Shown piece by piece: positions 30,753 through 54,744 of a stretch of 64,000 bases of DNA (position 1 is the first letter of the stretch; each line of letters opens with the position of its first letter). Source of the stretch: Sulfuricurvum kujiense DSM 16994 (GTDB taxonomy: Bacteria; Campylobacterota; Campylobacteria; Campylobacterales; Sulfurimonadaceae). The position numbers and the translations under genes were made by a program. The stretch spans positions 1,488,001-1,552,000 of the forward strand of contig NC_014762.1 in the NCBI RefSeq assembly GCF_000183725.1, in the 5' to 3' direction. Under the pieces are notes generated by a model that was given only the letters and a program-made list of their open reading frames with translations, searched no databases and was not told the origin of the DNA.

Positions 30753-31691
<939 letters not shown>

Positions 31692-31702
31692 TCACTTAGG
31701 TT

Positions 31703-31720
31703 GATGCAAGGGGTGTTCTA
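31703..31720 (-). promoter_or_regulatory. nif-type promoter element of nifH
   Basis: TAGAACACCCCTTGCATC on the minus strand. It has the TTGC and N10 spacing of a sigma-54 promoter, but AG in place of GG at -24. GACAAA-type repeats at 31752, 31771 and 31811 lie further upstream and may bind an activator. Confidence 0.6.
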
Positions 31721-41371: not shown

Positions 41372-42787
41372 CTAATTTACTTCCATTTCCTCTGGGAGGT
41401 TGAAATATTTGCGTGTCGCCTTTAGAACCGATGCTTCGATCGGCTGATAGGCATAGCTTTGATCAGCGACGATCCCGGCAGCTGCCAAATCACCTTGCGG
41501 ACATCCTCCGATTTTTGCCGTAAGGATCAGTTTGATATCTTTTAGGCGGTCTAAAATCGGTTGAAGCGGATTCGTACCGTCCGGCCCAGCACAGTATTCT
41601 GCTTCCACTTTACGGTGGTGGATGAATCGGATCCCTTTGTCCCCCGCTTCGTAGATCAAGAACTCACGTACGCTTCCGAAGTGTTGGTTGATCATCCCCT
41701 CGCCCGCCGTCGTTACCGCAACGAGGATCGTATGACCGTCAGAACTGAGTTCTTCTTTCTCTTTGCGAACACGCTCATTGGCTTGATCGAGGAAGAATCG
41801 GAACTCTTCGATTTTCGCCTGAGCCGCCTGACGCGCTTCAAGATCGTATTTGATCTGAAGTTCGTCGAAACTGAGCCCGGCGAATGTATCTTTCGTGAAC
41901 TCCGCTCCGCGGTCTTCTCCGATGAGACCGACCGCATCGGCGCGGCATTGTCGGCAGTGCTGCATCAGTTTCATATCCATGCCGCACGCTTCCTGGACTT
42001 CCATTTGCTGCTGATCGGTTGCACTCGGTACACCGTCTAGGGCAAATCTGGTTCCGAACTCCGGCTCGGATAGGATCGGCATGATATTATGCAAGAAAAC
42101 ACCGATCTCTTTTAGTTTTTTGGAAACTTCCGGGAGATGTTTGTCATTGATGCCGGGGATCAAAACCGAGTTAGCTTTGATCAAAATCCCTTTTTCGACA
42201 CATTTTTTCATCCCCTCTAGCTGACGTTCTAAGAGAATTTGTGCCGCTTCTTTTCCATAAATACGTTTGTTGTTGTAAAAAATCCACGGATAGATTTGAC
42301 TTCCGATCTCTCCGCTCTCATCGACACTGTTGATCGTCACGGTGATGTGATCGATATTGTGTTCAACCATCTCATCGATATAGGTTGCCAGTTCCAAACC
42401 GTTGGTGGAAAGGCACAGTTTCAAATCCGGAGCGAACTGACGAACCAGACCGAATGTTTCAAACGTTTTGCCCGGATTTGCCAACGCATCTCCCGGACCC
42501 GCTATCCCAAGAACACTCATCCGTTGGACTTCACCGCCGACAAGAAGCACTTTTTTAGCCGCTTCTTCCGGTGATAAGCGCTCGGATGTTACGCCGGGAC
42601 GGGATTCGTTAGAACAGTCATACTTACGGTTACAATAATTACATTGAATATTGCACGCCGGTGCAACCGCTACATGGATACGGGCGTAATGGTGATGCGC
42701 CCCCTCTGAATAGCATGGATGATTGTGAATCTTCTCTTTGATGTCATCTGGCATAAAAGCTTCGTTACCGCTTGAGGAACAACTCAT
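41372..42787 (-). CDS. nifB: FeMo-cofactor biosynthesis radical SAM protein NifB
   Basis: 471 residues. The radical SAM motif is CNIQCNYC (about residues 48-55), followed by NESRPGVTSERLSPEEA typical of NifB, then a C-terminal NifX-type domain (about 350-460, with NQHFGSVREFLIYEA) as in the longer NifB class. It makes NifB-co, the precursor of all nitrogenase cofactors, from Fe-S clusters and S-adenosylmethionine. AAGGAG seven bases before the ATG. It heads nifB-nifV-GNAT and has the nif-type motif 75 bp upstream. Confidence 0.97.
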   Translation of the reverse strand: MSCSSSGNEAFMPDDIKEKIHNHPCYSEGAHHHYARIHVAVAPACNIQCNYCNRKYDCSNESRPGVTSERLSPEEAAKKVLLVGGEVQRMSVLGIAGPGDALANPGKTFETFGLVRQFAPDLKLCLSTNGLELATYIDEMVEHNIDHITVTINSVDESGEIGSQIYPWIFYNNKRIYGKEAAQILLERQLEGMKKCVEKGILIKANSVLIPGINDKHLPEVSKKLKEIGVFLHNIMPILSEPEFGTRFALDGVPSATDQQQMEVQEACGMDMKLMQHCRQCRADAVGLIGEDRGAEFTKDTFAGLSFDELQIKYDLEARQAAQAKIEEFRFFLDQANERVRKEKEELSSDGHTILVAVTTAGEGMINQHFGSVREFLIYEAGDKGIRFIHHRKVEAEYCAGPDGTNPLQPILDRLKDIKLILTAKIGGCPQGDLAAAGIVADQSYAYQPIEASVLKATRKYFNLPEEMEVN

Positions 42788-42861: not shown

Positions 42862-42879
42862 AATGCAAATGATGTTCTT
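42862..42879 (-). promoter_or_regulatory. nif-type promoter element of nifB
   Basis: AAGAACATCATTTGCATT on the minus strand, 75 bp before the ATG, the longest leader of the eight sites. GACAAATAACG lies 21 bp further upstream. Confidence 0.6.
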
Positions 42880-42957: not shown

Positions 42958-45744
42958 TTACGGGTGAATAGTCGCAGATGGGACCGAGAAGAAGTATCCT
43001 TGGGAGTAGTCGATACCGAGTTCAACAAGCTTTGCGTAGATCGCTTCATCTTCTACAAATTCGGCAATGGTTGCAATCCCTTTTTTCTGTGCGAAGTGAA
43101 GGATACTCTCAACTGTTAGCAGATGGTCCCTATCATCATTAATATTCTTGATCAGCGATCCGTCTATTTTAATGTAATCGACATCCAGCTTGCTCAGGTA
43201 GCTGAAATTCGAATACCCTGTTCCGAAATCGTCGATCGCAATTTTACAGCCGTAATATTTAACCGTTTTAATGAACTCGATAACTTCGCCGAAATTTTCG
43301 ATCTCTTCGGTTTCAACGATCTCAAATACGAGACGGTTTGCAGCGGATGATTTTTCCAAAGCGTTATACAGGAATGTCCGTGTCTCTTTCGAGATAATGT
43401 CATGCAATGTCAGATTCAAAGAAAAATCATACTCCAACGTTTCGAATACGGCAAATGTTTTTGCGATCATGATTTGCGTCAGTTTATCATAGAGCTTCGA
43501 TTTTTTGGCATGCTCAAGAAACAAAAACGGGCTTACGACCCGTCCCTCATCGTCGATCATACGAATCAGGGCTTCATATTTTGTAATACGGCGGGTTTTA
43601 TTGTCAACGATTCCTTGAAAATAAGGAATGATACGATCCCCTTCGATAGCGGATTGAATCGTATTAACCATCATGATATTATTGTGCGTTTTTTCGCTCA
43701 ACGCCCGGTTATCATTGAAAAAGATTACTTTAGCCCGCTTCTCTTTCGCCTCTTTGAGAGCAATATGAGCTAAATTATAGACTTCCGATTTGGATGCGTG
43801 CGCTACACCGCCGGAAACTTTGACAGAGATATCGTACGTACCGATTTTAAATTTTCGGCTTTCGAGATTATTGACATATCCGACAATATGTTCTTTGAGT
43901 TCATTACTAAACTCATCAAAGCAAATAAAGACAAACTCATCTCCGCTGATACGGTAGAGGTGATGATGCTCGATCAACTCATCGATATTTTTTGCAAATG
44001 CTTTGAGCAAATCATCCCCGGCCGCATATCCGAAATAATCGTTGATATTGGAAAAACGGTCGATGTTTAATACGACCAGCGTCGGCTCTTTCGAACTGTT
44101 TTCCAAATCGGCGAAGAGCGCGGTACGGTTTTTAAATCCGGTGAGTTCATCGGTGAGCTGGCGTTGAATGATCCGCTCTTTCATAATCAAATCGGTAACA
44201 TCCATCCTTGCGGCAATGTATTCGACGATCTGCCCTCTCTCGTCAAAAATCGGGGCGATGACCGATTTGACGTAATACTCTTTGCCCGTTTTTGAAAAGT
44301 TTTTAAACGTATTTTTCCAAACTTTCCCCGCACGGATAGTGTCCCAAAGGTCTTTGAAGATTTCGGGAGAGTTGTCGGGATGACGGACGATATTGTGGTT
44401 TTTTCCCATCAACTCATCACGGGAATATCCCGAGATTTCGCAAAAAGCTTCATTGACGTAGGTTATTATCCCTTTGTCGTCCGTTTTAGAAACAATAGAG
44501 CTCTCATCCAAAACCATTTTATACTGGTCGAGAAAGGTAATGTTTTCATCCAGTTCATGCTGTGTCACATTAATCAAATGGGTAAGCGCTTTGAGCATCG
44601 AATGGCGATATTCGTGTTCGTTTTCATGTTTTTGGAAACGTACGCCCGTTTCGGATTCACTTAATGAAAGAGTCGTCGTCGTGATGTTGAGAAGCTGATT
44701 ATCCGAGGAAGAATGAAAAAATTCGCCGTAGGTAAAAAAGCCTGCCGTCGGAGCGATTTCATTGATCAGCCCGAATTCATAATTGAGCTGTTCCTGCAAA
44801 AAAAGTTTACGCACCGAACATGAATAGATATAGGTTGCTTCCGCAGGTGATGACGCGACATCTTCCTGAACATCGACGGCATGATTGAGTATTTCTTCGA
44901 CATTTCCGATGGCAAAACGGACTTTCTCACCGTTTTGAAAATGTCCGGCATATATGAATCCCCCATCGTTGCTCTGCCCGATGATCGACCTGGCGATACG
45001 AACGCCGTCTTCGATCTTAATAAGGGGAAACTCGATAGCGCTGGCCGGCACCCTCTCAACCGTCTCGGCACTCAGATAGTGGGTATAGAGCTCTTTGACA
45101 GGGAGATTGTCAATTTCGTAAATGACATTTTTGTCCGCTTTGGTTATCGTCATCTCTTTACCGACGGAAGTCCAGTTCAGCGAGTAGGCATTATGTACCT
45201 GCAATACGTCACTATCCAGTACCGCGATAACGATTCCGTCTTCATAGATTGTATTTTTATGGAATATGTACGTACGGGTAAAGGTTAAATCGTCCCCGGC
45301 ATTTCCTCCGGCGATCATTACATCATTTCGAACCGAGGTAAATCCGTTTAAAAAAGACTCGGAGTCATTGATCAACCCCTCGCTAAAGGCTATACATACC
45401 TTTGTACGCGAAGTCAGAATATCCCGCGCCGCACGTTGCCCGTTCTCGAAATCGGATTTTTGAAAATAATAGGTCGATACGTCCGTCGAATCGAAAATCG
45501 AAAAAGAGATGACGATCTGAAAGGAACTCATTTTACCGTCCATGATTTCACCCGCAGTCGTAGAACCGATCAATGAAGCATGGGGAAGGCGTGATACGAG
45601 AGTATCCAGTATCGGCTGAATGAGCGACTTGTACATCACGCCGCTAAAGAGTTGGATAAAAAGCGATCCCGTTTTGGGAATATGTTCTTGAATGAATGCT
45701 TCGAGCTGCTCTAAGTTCTCATATTTATGATTAATTAGACGCAT
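42958..45744 (-). CDS. FIST-PAS-GGDEF-EAL sensor protein
   Basis: About 928 residues, cytoplasmic. FIST N and C sensory domains (about 25-190 and 200-370; IGSTTAGEIMDG is typical), a PAS domain (about 405-510, with GYSRDELMGKNHNIVRHPDNS), GGDEF with the variant SGDEF, and EAL (EALIRM, DDFGTGYSN, KIDGS, QGYFF present). FIST is thought to bind small ligands such as amino acids. Cyclase activity is uncertain because the first Gly is replaced; phosphodiesterase activity is likely. The ATG is chosen because GGGAG lies five bases upstream; a GTG start six bases earlier sits on that site. Confidence 0.88.
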   Translation of the reverse strand: MRLINHKYENLEQLEAFIQEHIPKTGSLFIQLFSGVMYKSLIQPILDTLVSRLPHASLIGSTTAGEIMDGKMSSFQIVISFSIFDSTDVSTYYFQKSDFENGQRAARDILTSRTKVCIAFSEGLINDSESFLNGFTSVRNDVMIAGGNAGDDLTFTRTYIFHKNTIYEDGIVIAVLDSDVLQVHNAYSLNWTSVGKEMTITKADKNVIYEIDNLPVKELYTHYLSAETVERVPASAIEFPLIKIEDGVRIARSIIGQSNDGGFIYAGHFQNGEKVRFAIGNVEEILNHAVDVQEDVASSPAEATYIYSCSVRKLFLQEQLNYEFGLINEIAPTAGFFTYGEFFHSSSDNQLLNITTTTLSLSESETGVRFQKHENEHEYRHSMLKALTHLINVTQHELDENITFLDQYKMVLDESSIVSKTDDKGIITYVNEAFCEISGYSRDELMGKNHNIVRHPDNSPEIFKDLWDTIRAGKVWKNTFKNFSKTGKEYYVKSVIAPIFDERGQIVEYIAARMDVTDLIMKERIIQRQLTDELTGFKNRTALFADLENSSKEPTLVVLNIDRFSNINDYFGYAAGDDLLKAFAKNIDELIEHHHLYRISGDEFVFICFDEFSNELKEHIVGYVNNLESRKFKIGTYDISVKVSGGVAHASKSEVYNLAHIALKEAKEKRAKVIFFNDNRALSEKTHNNIMMVNTIQSAIEGDRIIPYFQGIVDNKTRRITKYEALIRMIDDEGRVVSPFLFLEHAKKSKLYDKLTQIMIAKTFAVFETLEYDFSLNLTLHDIISKETRTFLYNALEKSSAANRLVFEIVETEEIENFGEVIEFIKTVKYYGCKIAIDDFGTGYSNFSYLSKLDVDYIKIDGSLIKNINDDRDHLLTVESILHFAQKKGIATIAEFVEDEAIYAKLVELGIDYSQGYFFSVPSATIHP

Positions 45745-45841
45745 CAACACTCCCTTTTTTTACTTGCCTGTATGTTATTCTATCATTATAAAAGCTAACT
45801 ATTATGTTTTTTATATGCATTTTCGAAACATACTAATAGTG

Positions 45842-45859
45842 CAGAACAAAAAATGCATC
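45842..45859 (+). promoter_or_regulatory. nif-type promoter element before NifX-like gene
   Basis: CAGAACAAAAAATGCATC, 28 bp before the ATG. It matches the nifH site at 11 of the 12 positions outside the N5 spacer, counting TC at the end. Confidence 0.55.
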
Positions 45860-45887
45860 TCTATGCCAAATATAGAGGAGCATGTCG

Positions 45888-46328
45888 ATGATCGTTGCTA
45901 TTCCGCTGGATGCCAAAAAAAATGTTTACCATCACAATCCTTGTGCATGTGCGATGTTTTCTATGTATGAAGTGGTCGGAACCCGCAAGGACATACGATA
46001 CCGTTATCTCGAAACCAAACTCAATCCGTGGGAAAAATATTCCGGAGATATGGTAAAAGACCCGAAAATGATCGCCTGCGAATGCGAAAGTGCTTTAGCT
46101 CAAAGCCCGCATCATATCAGTGAACATTATGCCCTTCTGGAAGTGATCGGAAAGTCCAATGTCCTCATTGTCGATCAATACTGCCTCAACACTCTGTATG
46201 CCATGAAAAATGTGGGCATCAAACTTCATAAAGTTCCCCCTTTTATCAAAACGGCCGTACATGCGATCGAACATTTTGTTATCGGTACCGAAATCGCCGA
46301 ACATCTTCGCTACGTTCACCCCGCATAA
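45888..46328 (+). CDS. NifX/NifB-C-like cofactor-domain protein
   Basis: 146 residues. The fold pattern resembles the dinitrogenase iron-molybdenum cofactor family (MIVAIPLDAKKNVYHHNP ... VLIVDQYCLNTLYAMKNVGIKLH), but with extra Cys: CAC near residue 19 and CEC near residue 67. It could bind FeMo-cofactor precursors. The second ATG is used because GAGGAG is seven bases before it. It heads an operon with the thiol-peroxidase-like, SIR2-like, clpP and clpX genes, behind a nif-type motif. It is divergent from the FIST gene. Confidence 0.7.
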   Translation: MIVAIPLDAKKNVYHHNPCACAMFSMYEVVGTRKDIRYRYLETKLNPWEKYSGDMVKDPKMIACECESALAQSPHHISEHYALLEVIGKSNVLIVDQYCLNTLYAMKNVGIKLHKVPPFIKTAVHAIEHFVIGTEIAEHLRYVHPA

Positions 46329-46385
46329 GGCACGTAAGAACGCTAAATGCAGTGATTGAAGAATAGTTCATCTAAGGAGCCTACC

Positions 46386-46892
46386 GTGCAGATCACCTAT
46401 CAAAATTCTACCCTTTTACTCGAAGATTTGCCGCTGGATGTCGGATACGCATCCGAAAAAGTAAGCCTCAAAAACCGTTCCGGCGAAACCTTCGTTATCG
46501 GCGGACAAAACGGCTCTACTCAGCTCCTCATCAGTGTACCTTTTATCGATAATTCTCTTATCGCTCAGCTCAATGAGCTCAACACCCTCTTCTCCCTCAA
46601 CGCTCTGGGGGGAATCACCAAAGCACTCGTCGTTGCTAACGACAAACAGGAATTGCCCGCATTGGATGAGTGGTTATGCGGGTATGATTATGACGAAGCG
46701 TACGGAGATTATTACGGCGTCCGTCTCTCCAACAAAGAACTGGCTAAATCGCTGTTTATCATCTCAAAAGACGGCGCGGTGTTCTACCATGAGATTTTAG
46801 ACGATCTTGATGCTCCCTTCAGTATCGACAAAGCGCTCTCCAAAATCGTCGCGGCAAACAGCTGCTACACCGGAAAAGGGTGTCACGGGTAA
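46386..46892 (+). CDS. Thiol-peroxidase-like protein without peroxidatic Cys
   Basis: 168 residues from a GTG with AAGGAG six bases upstream; a TTG 30 bases earlier lacks one. The layout follows Tpx/peroxiredoxins: VSLKNRSGETFVIGG, a strand STQLLISVP, then the position where Tpx has its SxDTxxC motif, which here reads SVPFIDNSLIAQLN and has no Cys. The only Cys are near 88 (WLCGY) and in a C-terminal CYTGKGC. It is therefore unlikely to reduce peroxides in the usual way and may be a chaperone or binding protein for the nif system. It lies between the NifX-like and SIR2-like genes. Confidence 0.6.
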   Translation: MQITYQNSTLLLEDLPLDVGYASEKVSLKNRSGETFVIGGQNGSTQLLISVPFIDNSLIAQLNELNTLFSLNALGGITKALVVANDKQELPALDEWLCGYDYDEAYGDYYGVRLSNKELAKSLFIISKDGAVFYHEILDDLDAPFSIDKALSKIVAANSCYTGKGCHG

Positions 46893-46964: not shown

Positions 46965-46982
46965 AAGAACGCAAAATGCAAT
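46965..46982 (+). promoter_or_regulatory. nif-type promoter element before SIR2-like-clpP-clpX
   Basis: AAGAACGCAAAATGCAAT, 29 bp before the SIR2-like ATG. It gives this operon its own nif-type promoter in addition to read-through from the NifX-like gene. Confidence 0.55.
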
Positions 46983-47011
46983 AGTTTAAGAAAGCTCCAA
47001 AAGGGATCACA

Positions 47012-47842
47012 ATGGACACACTAATTGAAACGATAAAGAAAGAGTTACGCAACCAGACCACGATCCCCTACTTCGGTTTGGGTGTGTTTGAAGGGATTAC
47101 GACCAAAGAAGCAGAAGCGGTTCCTCATGACAGCGATTCTCTGATTTTGGCAATGAACGGCGGACGTGCGATGTCGCCTCGACTGATGTTCGAATACTCC
47201 CGCGCCGCCATGCATCTCGAACAGCGCCGAGGGGTAGAGTACATGACTCAGCTGATGAATCATATCTATACCAAGCCGTTCGATCCGACGCCGCTGCATA
47301 AAGCAATCACCGATATGTCGCCGCGCTATATTATCGATACGAACCGTGACACCAAGTTCCAAGAGCTGCTGGCCTACACGCCGCACTGTCTCATCATCGG
47401 AAAATCACGCATCATGGGTGATCTGAACCGATACGAAGTGTACGAATACGATGTCGAAAACCAAAAATACTTTTTGGTAGACGAAGAGGTGCTTGGAACC
47501 GCCGAAAAGATCCTCTTTAAACCGATGGGTTCACCTCTGCCGAATCCGAGCTTCGTCATCTCTGACGCCGACTATGTCGACTGGCTCACCGAAGCGATGG
47601 GAGGATTTGCCGTACCGAAAATCCTCAAAACCTACCGCAAGACCAAAAAGTACCTCTTTTTAGGGACATCGTTCGACCGCGATACCGACCGTATGGTGGC
47701 TAACGAACTGAGCCTCGATCTGGAGGGCGGGTACGTTATCACCGACAAAGAACTGGGCAAAAAAGAGAAGAAGTTCATCGAGAAGCATAACCTCGAAGTG
47801 ATCCCGATGTCACTTCCTGAATTCATCAAAGCATTTATCTAA
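47012..47842 (+). CDS. SIR2-like protein, catalytic His absent
   Basis: 276 residues resembling the SIR2_2 family: nucleotide-binding start IPYFGLGVF, later PRYIIDTNRD (family consensus IITTNYD), then a segment KPMGSP at the place of the family KLHGS, so the catalytic His is replaced by Met. The C-terminus FVISDADYVDWL ... YLFLGTSFDRD fits SIR2_2. NAD hydrolysis or deacylation is thus unlikely; NAD-binding or a scaffold role is possible. AAGGG six bases before the ATG. It is followed by clpP after 11 bp. This is not an antiviral SIR2 context: the neighbours are nif and Clp genes. Confidence 0.65.
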   Translation: MDTLIETIKKELRNQTTIPYFGLGVFEGITTKEAEAVPHDSDSLILAMNGGRAMSPRLMFEYSRAAMHLEQRRGVEYMTQLMNHIYTKPFDPTPLHKAITDMSPRYIIDTNRDTKFQELLAYTPHCLIIGKSRIMGDLNRYEVYEYDVENQKYFLVDEEVLGTAEKILFKPMGSPLPNPSFVISDADYVDWLTEAMGGFAVPKILKTYRKTKKYLFLGTSFDRDTDRMVANELSLDLEGGYVITDKELGKKEKKFIEKHNLEVIPMSLPEFIKAFI

Positions 47843-47853
47843 AGGAGCCGCTT

Positions 47854-48450
47854 ATGCCGTTTATTCCAACCGTAAAAGATGTTTCACCGCGTGGAGAGCG
47901 TTATTTCGATCTCTTTTCCAAACTCTTGGGGGATCGCGTTATCGTTATCACCGAAGCGATCGACGATCATATGATGGGAGTTATCGTCTCTCAGCTGCTG
48001 TACCTCGAAGCGATGGACCCTGACGAGCCGATCCACATGTACATCAGTTCTCCGGGCGGTTCGGTTATGGCGGGACTTGCCATATTAGATACTATGAATC
48101 TCATCAACGCCCCTGTCCACACCTACGCGATGGGGCTGGTCGCGTCGATGGCTGCGGTACTCTTTACCTGCGGCGAAAAAGGGCACCGCTATATGCTCCC
48201 GAATGCCGAAGTGATGATCCATCAGCCACTGGGAGGATATTCGGGTCAGGCGAGCGATATCGAGATCCACACCAAACATATCCTCAACCTCAAACGCCGA
48301 TTGTATGTGATCCTCGCCGAAGCGACGGGGAAAAGCGCGAAAGTGATCGAAAAAGAGTCTGATCGCGACAACTACATGGAGGCCAAAGAAGCGATAGCGT
48401 TCGGCCTCGCCGATGAGATTCTCACAAAATTCACCGCTAAGGATGTCTGA
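47854..48450 (+). CDS. clpP: ATP-dependent protease subunit ClpP, nif-linked
   Basis: 198 residues, full length. Catalytic Ser in MGLVASMAAVLF (about residue 98), His in MIHQPLGG (about 123) and a later Asp complete the triad. It forms the barrel protease used by ClpX. AAGGAG six bases before the ATG. The stop overlaps the clpX start (TGATG). Being coupled to clpX and to nif genes, it is probably a second, nif-dedicated copy rather than the housekeeping protease; a genome-wide count is needed for proof. Confidence 0.93.
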   Translation: MPFIPTVKDVSPRGERYFDLFSKLLGDRVIVITEAIDDHMMGVIVSQLLYLEAMDPDEPIHMYISSPGGSVMAGLAILDTMNLINAPVHTYAMGLVASMAAVLFTCGEKGHRYMLPNAEVMIHQPLGGYSGQASDIEIHTKHILNLKRRLYVILAEATGKSAKVIEKESDRDNYMEAKEAIAFGLADEILTKFTAKDV

Positions 48451-49661
48451 TGCAACCAGAAAAAACCTGTTCATTTTGCGGCCGCAAACAAAGCGAAGTC
48501 AAAAAAATGTTCTCTTCGGAGACGACCCATATCTGTAACGAATGCGTCACGACCTGTTCATCCATTTTACAAAAAGAGGTGCGCTACGAACAGCGCTCCG
48601 CGATGCAGCAGCAGCTTCCGACTCCGGAGAAGATCGTCGAGTTTTTGAACAAATACATCATCGGGCAGGAAGATGCGAAAAAAGTCCTCGCCGTCGCGTT
48701 GTACAACCACTACAAACGGATCGAAAATCCGGTTTACAATAATGTAGAGCTGGAGAAAAGTAACATCATGCTCGTCGGACCGACGGGTAGCGGTAAAACA
48801 CTCCTCGCCAAATCGCTCTCCAAGATCATGCAGGTTCCGTTCGCCGTCGCCGACGCAACTGCCCTCACTGAAGCGGGATATGTCGGTGAGGACGTCGAGA
48901 GCATCCTCAGCCGCCTCCTCGCCGCGGCAAATTATGATATCGACCTCGCACAGCGCGGAATCATCTATATCGACGAAGTGGACAAAATCGCCCGCAAAGG
49001 CGAGAGTTCGACGATGGGGCGCGACGTATCGGGAGAGGGAGTTCAGCAAGGGCTTCTCAAAATCCTGGAGGGTGCCGAAGTGTACGTCCCCATCAAAGGG
49101 AGCCGTAAAAACTCTACCACTGAGACGGTACTCTTTAACACCTCTCATGTCCTCTTCGTCTGCGGCGGGGCATTTGTAGGTCTCGTCCCTGACACCCATA
49201 CGAAGAAAACGAACAAAGTGGGATTCAGCAAAAGCGCCTCTGCCGATGCGAAACCGAAAAAAATCGATGCCAAAGCCCTGGTGCATTACGGGATGATCCC
49301 CGAGTTTATCGGACGTATCCCTGTCGTCGCACAGCTGGGCGAACTGACCAAAGATCAGATGATCCAAATCCTCCAAGAGCCGGACAACGCTCTGATCAAA
49401 CAGTTTCAGGCGCTGTTCGACATGGACGGTATCGAGCTGAATTTCGAGGATAAAGCCCTCGAAGCGGTAGCGCAAAAAGCGATCGACAGAGGTGTCGGAG
49501 CGCGGGGATTACGGGGAATTATCGAGGAAGCGATGCTGCCGTTGCAATTTAGCTGTCCGTCGAAGAAGAATCTCCAGAGTGTCACCGTCACCGAAGCGGT
49601 GATCGAGAATCCGGACAATGAGCCTATCTACGTCTACAAAGAAGAACACGCGGAAGCGTGA
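48450..49661 (+). CDS. clpX: ATPase subunit ClpX, nif-linked
   Basis: 403 residues. N-terminal zinc-binding domain (CSFCGRKQ ... CNECV), Walker A GPTGSGKTLL (about 110-119), Walker B IIYIDEVDKIAR, sensor and pore regions. It unfolds substrates for ClpP. Azotobacter vinelandii has a nif-specific ClpX2 that controls NifB and NifEN turnover, which is the nearest known parallel. The coupled clpP-clpX pair in one operon behind a nif-type motif suggests the same job here. The downstream region is convergent with glnS. Confidence 0.95.
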   Translation: MQPEKTCSFCGRKQSEVKKMFSSETTHICNECVTTCSSILQKEVRYEQRSAMQQQLPTPEKIVEFLNKYIIGQEDAKKVLAVALYNHYKRIENPVYNNVELEKSNIMLVGPTGSGKTLLAKSLSKIMQVPFAVADATALTEAGYVGEDVESILSRLLAAANYDIDLAQRGIIYIDEVDKIARKGESSTMGRDVSGEGVQQGLLKILEGAEVYVPIKGSRKNSTTETVLFNTSHVLFVCGGAFVGLVPDTHTKKTNKVGFSKSASADAKPKKIDAKALVHYGMIPEFIGRIPVVAQLGELTKDQMIQILQEPDNALIKQFQALFDMDGIELNFEDKALEAVAQKAIDRGVGARGLRGIIEEAMLPLQFSCPSKKNLQSVTVTEAVIENPDNEPIYVYKEEHAEA

Positions 49662-53506: not shown

Positions 53507-53524
53507 TCGAACAAATCTTGCATT
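53507..53524 (+). promoter_or_regulatory. nif-type promoter element of nifS
   Basis: TCGAACAAATCTTGCATT, 35 bp before the ATG. It places the cysteine desulfurase in the same regulon as nifH and nifB. Confidence 0.58.

Positions 53525-53550: not shown

Positions 53551-54743
<1,193 letters not shown>

Positions 54744-54744
<1 letters not shown>

Follow-up and report, generated by a model that had tools for sequence, protein, structure and literature searches.

The nitrogen-fixation region of Sulfuricurvum kujiense DSM 16994 raises the question of why a SIR2-like gene, a clpP and a clpX should form one operon among nif genes, and what such an operon could contribute to nitrogenase. The reading favoured here, at a rough probability of 0.55, is that the operon is a protein quality-control module of the nif regulon, in which the nif-associated ClpX (ClpX2), with its own ClpP (ClpP2) or the housekeeping one, would degrade nif assembly factors and the SIR2-like protein would be a catalytically dead accessory. 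The features concerned, within the window (the whole 64-kb stretch of DNA analysed), are the following:

31705-31718, minus strand: nif-type motif core 5' of nifH (30753-31670), from the motif scan
42864-42877, minus strand: nif-type motif core 5' of nifB (41372-42787), from the motif scan
45882-46328, plus strand: g42, a 148-aa protein of the same gene block, with a motif core at 45844-45857
46338-46351, plus strand: nif-type motif core GAACGCTAAATGCA 5' of g43, from the motif scan
46386-46892, plus strand: g43, a thiol-peroxidase-fold protein, usually encoded directly 5' of the SIR2-like gene
46965-46980, plus strand: sigma54-like (-24/-12) nif-type motif AAGAACGCAAAATGCA of the SIR2-clpP-clpX operon, from core count and position
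47012-47842, plus strand: SIR2-like gene (SIR2_2, PF13289), 276 aa, Pfam score 26.8 bits against a cut-off of 24.5
47854-48450, plus strand: clpP2 (nif-associated ClpP), 198 aa, Pfam CLP_protease 236 bits, triad S98-H123-D172 intact
48450-49661, plus strand: clpX2 (nif-associated ClpX), 403 aa, Pfam ClpX zinc finger and AAA_2
53509-53522, plus strand: nif-type motif core 5' of nifS (53560-54744), from the motif scan

The SIR2-like gene is followed after an 11-bp gap by clpP and then by clpX, which starts within a TGATG and overlaps clpP by 1 nt; the tight packing described in an earlier note on this DNA is thus borne out in its coordinates, its gap and its overlap. The protein encoded by g42 has no match in Pfam or NCBIfam; in relatives this gene usually adjoins g43 and is itself preceded by the nif-type motif. 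Between nifB and the operon lies the gene of a 930-aa protein (42958-45750, minus strand) with NosP-like, PAS and GGDEF/EAL similarity, which is found in many Sulfuricurvum relatives.

The complete genome of the host has one copy of the SIR2-like gene and a second set of Clp genes, namely a clpP directly 3' of the trigger-factor gene (51% identical to the window clpP) and a housekeeping clpX (47% identical to the window clpX), so that the operon does not hold the only clpP and clpX of the genome. In phylogenetic trees, the nif-linked ClpX2 form a clade apart from housekeeping ClpX and the ClpP2 a clade apart from housekeeping ClpP, each with 100/100 support, which upholds the claim of a dedicated nif-linked ClpP-ClpX pair. 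A second clpX encoded with nif genes and distinct from the housekeeping copy is also the situation of Azotobacter.

The claim that the operon begins with its own nif-type motif holds as well, once the motif is taken in the form used by this lineage. No site in the 64-kb window fits the strict sigma54 consensus TGGYAYR-N4-TTGCW, and sites within 3 mismatches of TGGCAC-N5-TTGCA are not more frequent there than chance predicts; the lineage's own core, GAAC-N6-TGCA, was adopted in place of the standard consensus. This core occurs 12 times in the window vs 2.0 expected, a count reached in 0 of 100 shuffles, and six of the 12 copies lie just 5' of nifH, nifB, nifS, g42, g43 and the SIR2-like gene. 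In more than 12 other Sulfuricurvum genomes the core stands 46 nt 5' of the SIR2-like gene despite a differing spacer, while in other relatives it is found 5' of g43 or g42, ahead of the same gene block. The spacing of the motif fits a -24/-12 promoter, but of the GG typical of such promoters the first G is missing. Given this spacing, the positions of the core and the presence of a nifA gene in the host genome, control of the operon by NifA and sigma54 together with the nif genes is likely.

The link to nitrogen fixation extends through the phylum. Among 397 Campylobacterota genomes searched with a SIR2-like profile (75 with nifH and 322 without), the gene was found in 71 of the 75 nifH-bearing genomes and in 1 of the 322 others, counts in which related genomes are treated as separate, so that the Fisher value obtained from them is no true probability. 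The single carrier without nifH (G012) has nifK, and the missing nifH is therefore probably an assembly gap. In the 57 pairs located on the same contig, the distance from the SIR2-like gene to nifH has a median of 15.8 kb and a maximum of 43.5 kb, and the homologues are thus not found mainly away from nif loci. In one genus (g37), the gene lies 18-43 kb from nifH and no other nif gene is present within the 19-kb region examined.

The composition of the operon is less constant. The 102 loci collected comprise 61 with SIR2-clpP-clpX, 27 with SIR2-clpX, 10 with neither clp gene and 4 ended by a contig edge. A frequent order is nifB-nifV upstream, followed by g42-g43-SIR2-clpP-clpX-nifS, with nifS directly 3' of clpX in many relatives and g43 directly 5' of the SIR2-like gene in 71 of the 102 loci; in other families SIR2-clpX stays and the neighbours change. 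The expectation that the trio is kept beside nif in other genomes is upheld by the 61 complete loci, but the trio is not obligatory. The housekeeping clpX is the only one in all ten genus-g37 genomes tested that carry the SIR2-like gene and in two further genomes (G388 and G363); conversely, one genome (G197) combines nif with a nif-type ClpX2 and lacks the SIR2-like gene. The SIR2-like, clpX and clpP modules are therefore separable, and nif can do without the additional Clp genes, as genomes exist that combine nif and the SIR2-like gene with a single, housekeeping clpX.

As to the SIR2-like protein itself, the AlphaFold model (mean pLDDT 80) has a SIR2 Rossmann fold and matches the SIR2 domains of ThsA, DSR2 and KomC with VIA Z scores of about 15-16.5, so that the fold of an active sirtuin or SIR2 NADase is present, but the catalytic His and Asn are not retained together. 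The position of the catalytic His is occupied by Met172 (KPMG) in 58 of 59 Campylobacterota homologues and by Leu in the other one, which confirms and extends the replacement proposed earlier from the window alone; the DTNRD motif, including Asn111, is retained in the Campylobacterota proteins. In these proteins GLG or GPG stands in place of the GAG loop and Phe26 is invariant, which makes NAD binding uncertain.

Relatives are found outside the phylum. Plasmids of Rhizobium, Sinorhizobium, Mesorhizobium, Bradyrhizobium and Methylococcus encode proteins with 26-29% identity over 94-100% of the query (E from 1e-16 to 1e-23 among the matches listed), which represents near full-length homology to SIR2_2 proteins of nif clusters. 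The five plasmid regions examined are all nif clusters, the SIR2-like gene stands beside nifT in four of them, and in none of the five does a clp gene adjoin it. Four rhizobial-type sequences retain the His and have Trp in place of the Asn, whereas the Campylobacterota proteins keep the Asn and have Met for the His; the Methylococcus protein is devoid of both catalytic residues, with Leu and Trp at these positions. The Asn/His pair is thus not shared throughout the family, and on the evidence of these residues its members are unlikely to have kept a common deacylase or NADase activity. In 27 Campylobacterota loci the SIR2-like protein is encoded with nif but without ClpP, in 10 loci it has neither Clp protein beside it, and rhizobial nif clusters have it with no clp gene alongside; ClpX2 in turn occurs without it in G197. 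The earlier idea that the SIR2-like protein is a part of the protease is accordingly not upheld as stated. Because the trio is not obligatory, the protein is regarded primarily as a pseudo-catalytic nif accessory factor with an NADase fold rather than merely a Clp adaptor, although it is possibly an adaptor too.

The Clp proteins, by contrast with the SIR2-like protein and judging from their motifs, look active. ClpX2 keeps the zinc finger, Walker A and B, the GYVG pore loop and a hydrophobic xGF docking loop (VGF in the window copy), and the Ser-His-Asp triad is intact in all 84 ClpP2 sequences. The RKH loop at the ClpX pore entrance helps to select tagged substrates; it reads RKN in the window ClpX2 and RKN or RKS in all the nif-ClpX2 aligned, while all 14 housekeeping copies have RKH. 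The docking interface differs on both sides. At the ClpP-docking tripeptide, 54/54 ClpX2 encoded with ClpP2 have VGF or VGL and 24/26 ClpX2 without ClpP2 have MGF, LGF or AGF, numbers that are not to be read as independent events since the split follows phylogeny and perhaps reflects a single event. VGF is nonetheless kept in two clpP-less ClpX2 (loci L050 and L151), and housekeeping ClpX has MGF, LGF or IGF. At the docking-patch positions, which we take from E. coli ClpP, ClpP2 has His at the Tyr60-equivalent, Leu at the Phe82-equivalent and Tyr at the Phe49-equivalent, vs mostly Tyr, Tyr and Phe in housekeeping ClpP. These changes fit a ClpX2-ClpP2 pair, itself deduced from sequence, that is insulated from the housekeeping pair. 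Outside the phylum, a tblastn search of plasmids with ClpX2 returned only ClpX proteins at less than 60% identity, those listed being 49-50% identical, gammaproteobacterial and partly annotated as ClpX. The ClpX of a Methylococcus nif plasmid was considered as a second case of nif-ClpX2 and rejected, as its RKH loop is of the ordinary kind and the tree places it among the housekeeping ClpX. That plasmid, from Methylococcus sp. EFPC2, carries clpP-clpX-lon beside nifE/N/X/Q (L099, 23329-27830).

The nif linkage, the distinct clades, the intact ClpP and ATPase motifs, the altered loops and the lost catalytic residues are properties of the genes and of their predicted products, and the quality-control reading would connect them as follows. 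ClpX2 would be a ClpX paralogue specialised for clients among the nif proteins; in the window lineage it would dock its own ClpP2, whereas the housekeeping ClpP is its probable partner in relatives that lack clpP2. By analogy with the reported control of NifB and NifEN levels by ClpX2 in Azotobacter, ClpX2 and ClpP would unfold and degrade nitrogenase assembly factors. The first job of the SIR2-like protein would lie in nitrogenase or cofactor assembly, and through a putative contact with ClpX2 it may pass on to the latter those clients that are defective or in excess. Weighing against this reading are the dispensability of the Clp genes for nif, the docking-loop split that follows phylogeny, with VGF retained in L050 and L151, and the position of the SIR2-like gene in genus g37.

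Other explanations give different weight to the same observations. A sensor-gated protease, as suggested in the earlier note, is possible but doubtful; here NAD(H) or a redox signal, bound by the SIR2-like protein, would turn the degradation of nitrogenase parts by ClpX2P2 on or off. This reading would account for a SIR2 fold with DTNRD retained, for an operon shared with clpX in 88 of the 102 loci, for a zinc-finger domain of the kind used by adaptors in ClpX2 and for the gene upstream, but Campylobacterota and rhizobia both have nif loci that retain the SIR2-like protein with no clp gene beside it, and the GLG/GPG loop with Phe26 leaves NAD binding in doubt. The upstream protein, g43, has a thiol-peroxidase fold (Foldseek E 5e-12) without a conserved peroxidatic Cys and ends in a conserved two-Cys tail, CYTGKGCH, features which keep a redox-linked reading open. 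The more specific proposal that the dead thiol-peroxidase-fold and SIR2-fold proteins together form a redox- or NAD(H)-responsive adaptor loading nitrogenase assembly factors onto ClpX2-ClpP2 seems unlikely; if true, it would represent a nitrogenase-specific, sensor-gated proteolytic switch. That ClpX2 acts mainly as an unfoldase or remodeller, for example by opening up NifEN or NifDK so that cofactor can be transferred, with proteolysis secondary and ClpP2 a lineage-specific addition, can be entertained only tentatively. It agrees with the 27 SIR2-clpX loci without a neighbouring clpP, with a genome (G025) that has one clpP and two clpX, and with the nif-ClpX2 of G197 standing alone; against it, an xGF or VGL docking tripeptide is present in all nif-ClpX2 examined, its first place being hydrophobic except in G197 (SGF), and ClpX2 without ClpP2 usually have MGF, like the housekeeping ClpX of the host, which suggests the use of a shared ClpP.

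The remaining readings concern the SIR2-like protein or deny a joint function. If the operon were a passenger whose promoter and location are those of nif solely for reasons of expression, the separate gain and loss of SIR2, clpX and clpP would be explained, but SIR2-clpX adjacency persists across several families as the neighbours change and the co-occurrence of the SIR2-like gene with nif is near-perfect, and we regard this reading as quite improbable. That the SIR2-like protein modifies nitrogenase proteins as an active NAD-dependent deacylase or ADP-ribosyl enzyme is very improbable, since no catalytic pair is conserved (Met for His in Campylobacterota, Trp for Asn in the four rhizobial-type sequences, neither residue in Methylococcus); on its side are the SIR2 fold and the case of Zymomonas, where ZMO1821, the SIR2 protein of the nif island, is induced under N2 fixation and is a proposed deacetylase and where nitrogenase proteins are acetylated (PMC8594446, PMC8600466). 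That the operon is an anti-phage defence module of a SIR2 NADase with Clp is hardly credible: the top structural matches are indeed the defence NADases ThsA, DSR2 and KomC, with which the window protein shares its fold, but the catalytic His, which is H171 in DSR2 and H146 in KomC, both of phage defence, is Met in the window protein, whose linkage to nif is strict. An anti-phage SIR2 system was also sought with PADLOC and rejected, the matches being weak and partial and the context being nif. The quality-control reading, with the SIR2-like protein as an accessory of nitrogenase or cofactor assembly, is therefore retained.

Both components have counterparts in known systems. In Azotobacter vinelandii the nif cluster reads nifUSV-cysE1-nifWZM-clpX2, and ClpX2, likewise an extra ClpX among nif genes, is likened to the present protein by gene context; the published cluster listing shows neither a SIR2-like gene nor a dedicated ClpP beside clpX2. 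This ClpX2 reportedly controls NifB and NifEN levels, as stated in the title of Martinez-Noel et al. 2011. The clpX and clpP of Azoarcus BH72 (azo2070/azo2071) are described as NifA-dependent and up under N2 fixation, a comparison by description only, and the passages on these genes make no mention of a SIR2-like gene (PMC3916325). Among SIR2 proteins, Rcc03262 of Rhodobacter adjoins nifT and is undetected without NifA (PMC6925177), and PST_1325 of P. stutzeri is listed just before nifH (PMC11332353). Zymomonas, Rhodobacter, P. stutzeri and rhizobia thus also have SIR2_2 within the nif cluster, ZMO1821, Rcc03262 and PST_1325 being likened to the window protein by annotation, without alignment. 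A nif-linked ClpX2 (Azotobacter) and a nif-cluster SIR2 (Zymomonas, Rhodobacter) have each already been reported, while a search of the literature collection used, for SIR2, clpX and nif joined in Campylobacterota, returned no report; the union of SIR2 with ClpX2, the dedicated ClpP and the change of the docking interface appear new.

Little is known outside Azotobacter about the disposal and recycling of nitrogenase assembly factors, and throughout the Campylobacterota an insulated ClpX is maintained beside a SIR2-like protein, to which one lineage adds its own ClpP. The ClpX2-ClpP2 pair would offer an example from nature of how a protease is set apart from its housekeeping counterpart. The SIR2-like gene belongs to the near-universal nif genes of Campylobacterota and has relatives in rhizobial nif clusters; judged by its residues, the family is probably not a deacetylase, unlike what has been proposed for nif-cluster SIR2 elsewhere, and an understanding of what it does would be of use in engineering nitrogenase into other hosts.

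Two loci deserve a separate mention. In L156 (G252:C1:1422000-1441000), nifH, nifB and the SIR2-like gene are all fragmented and clpX has diverged, which reflects either joint decay or frameshift errors of the assembly. Genome G011 holds two near-identical SIR2-clpP-clpX regions (L016 on C1 and L018 on C9) and two nifK, either as a real duplication or as a result of mixed strains.
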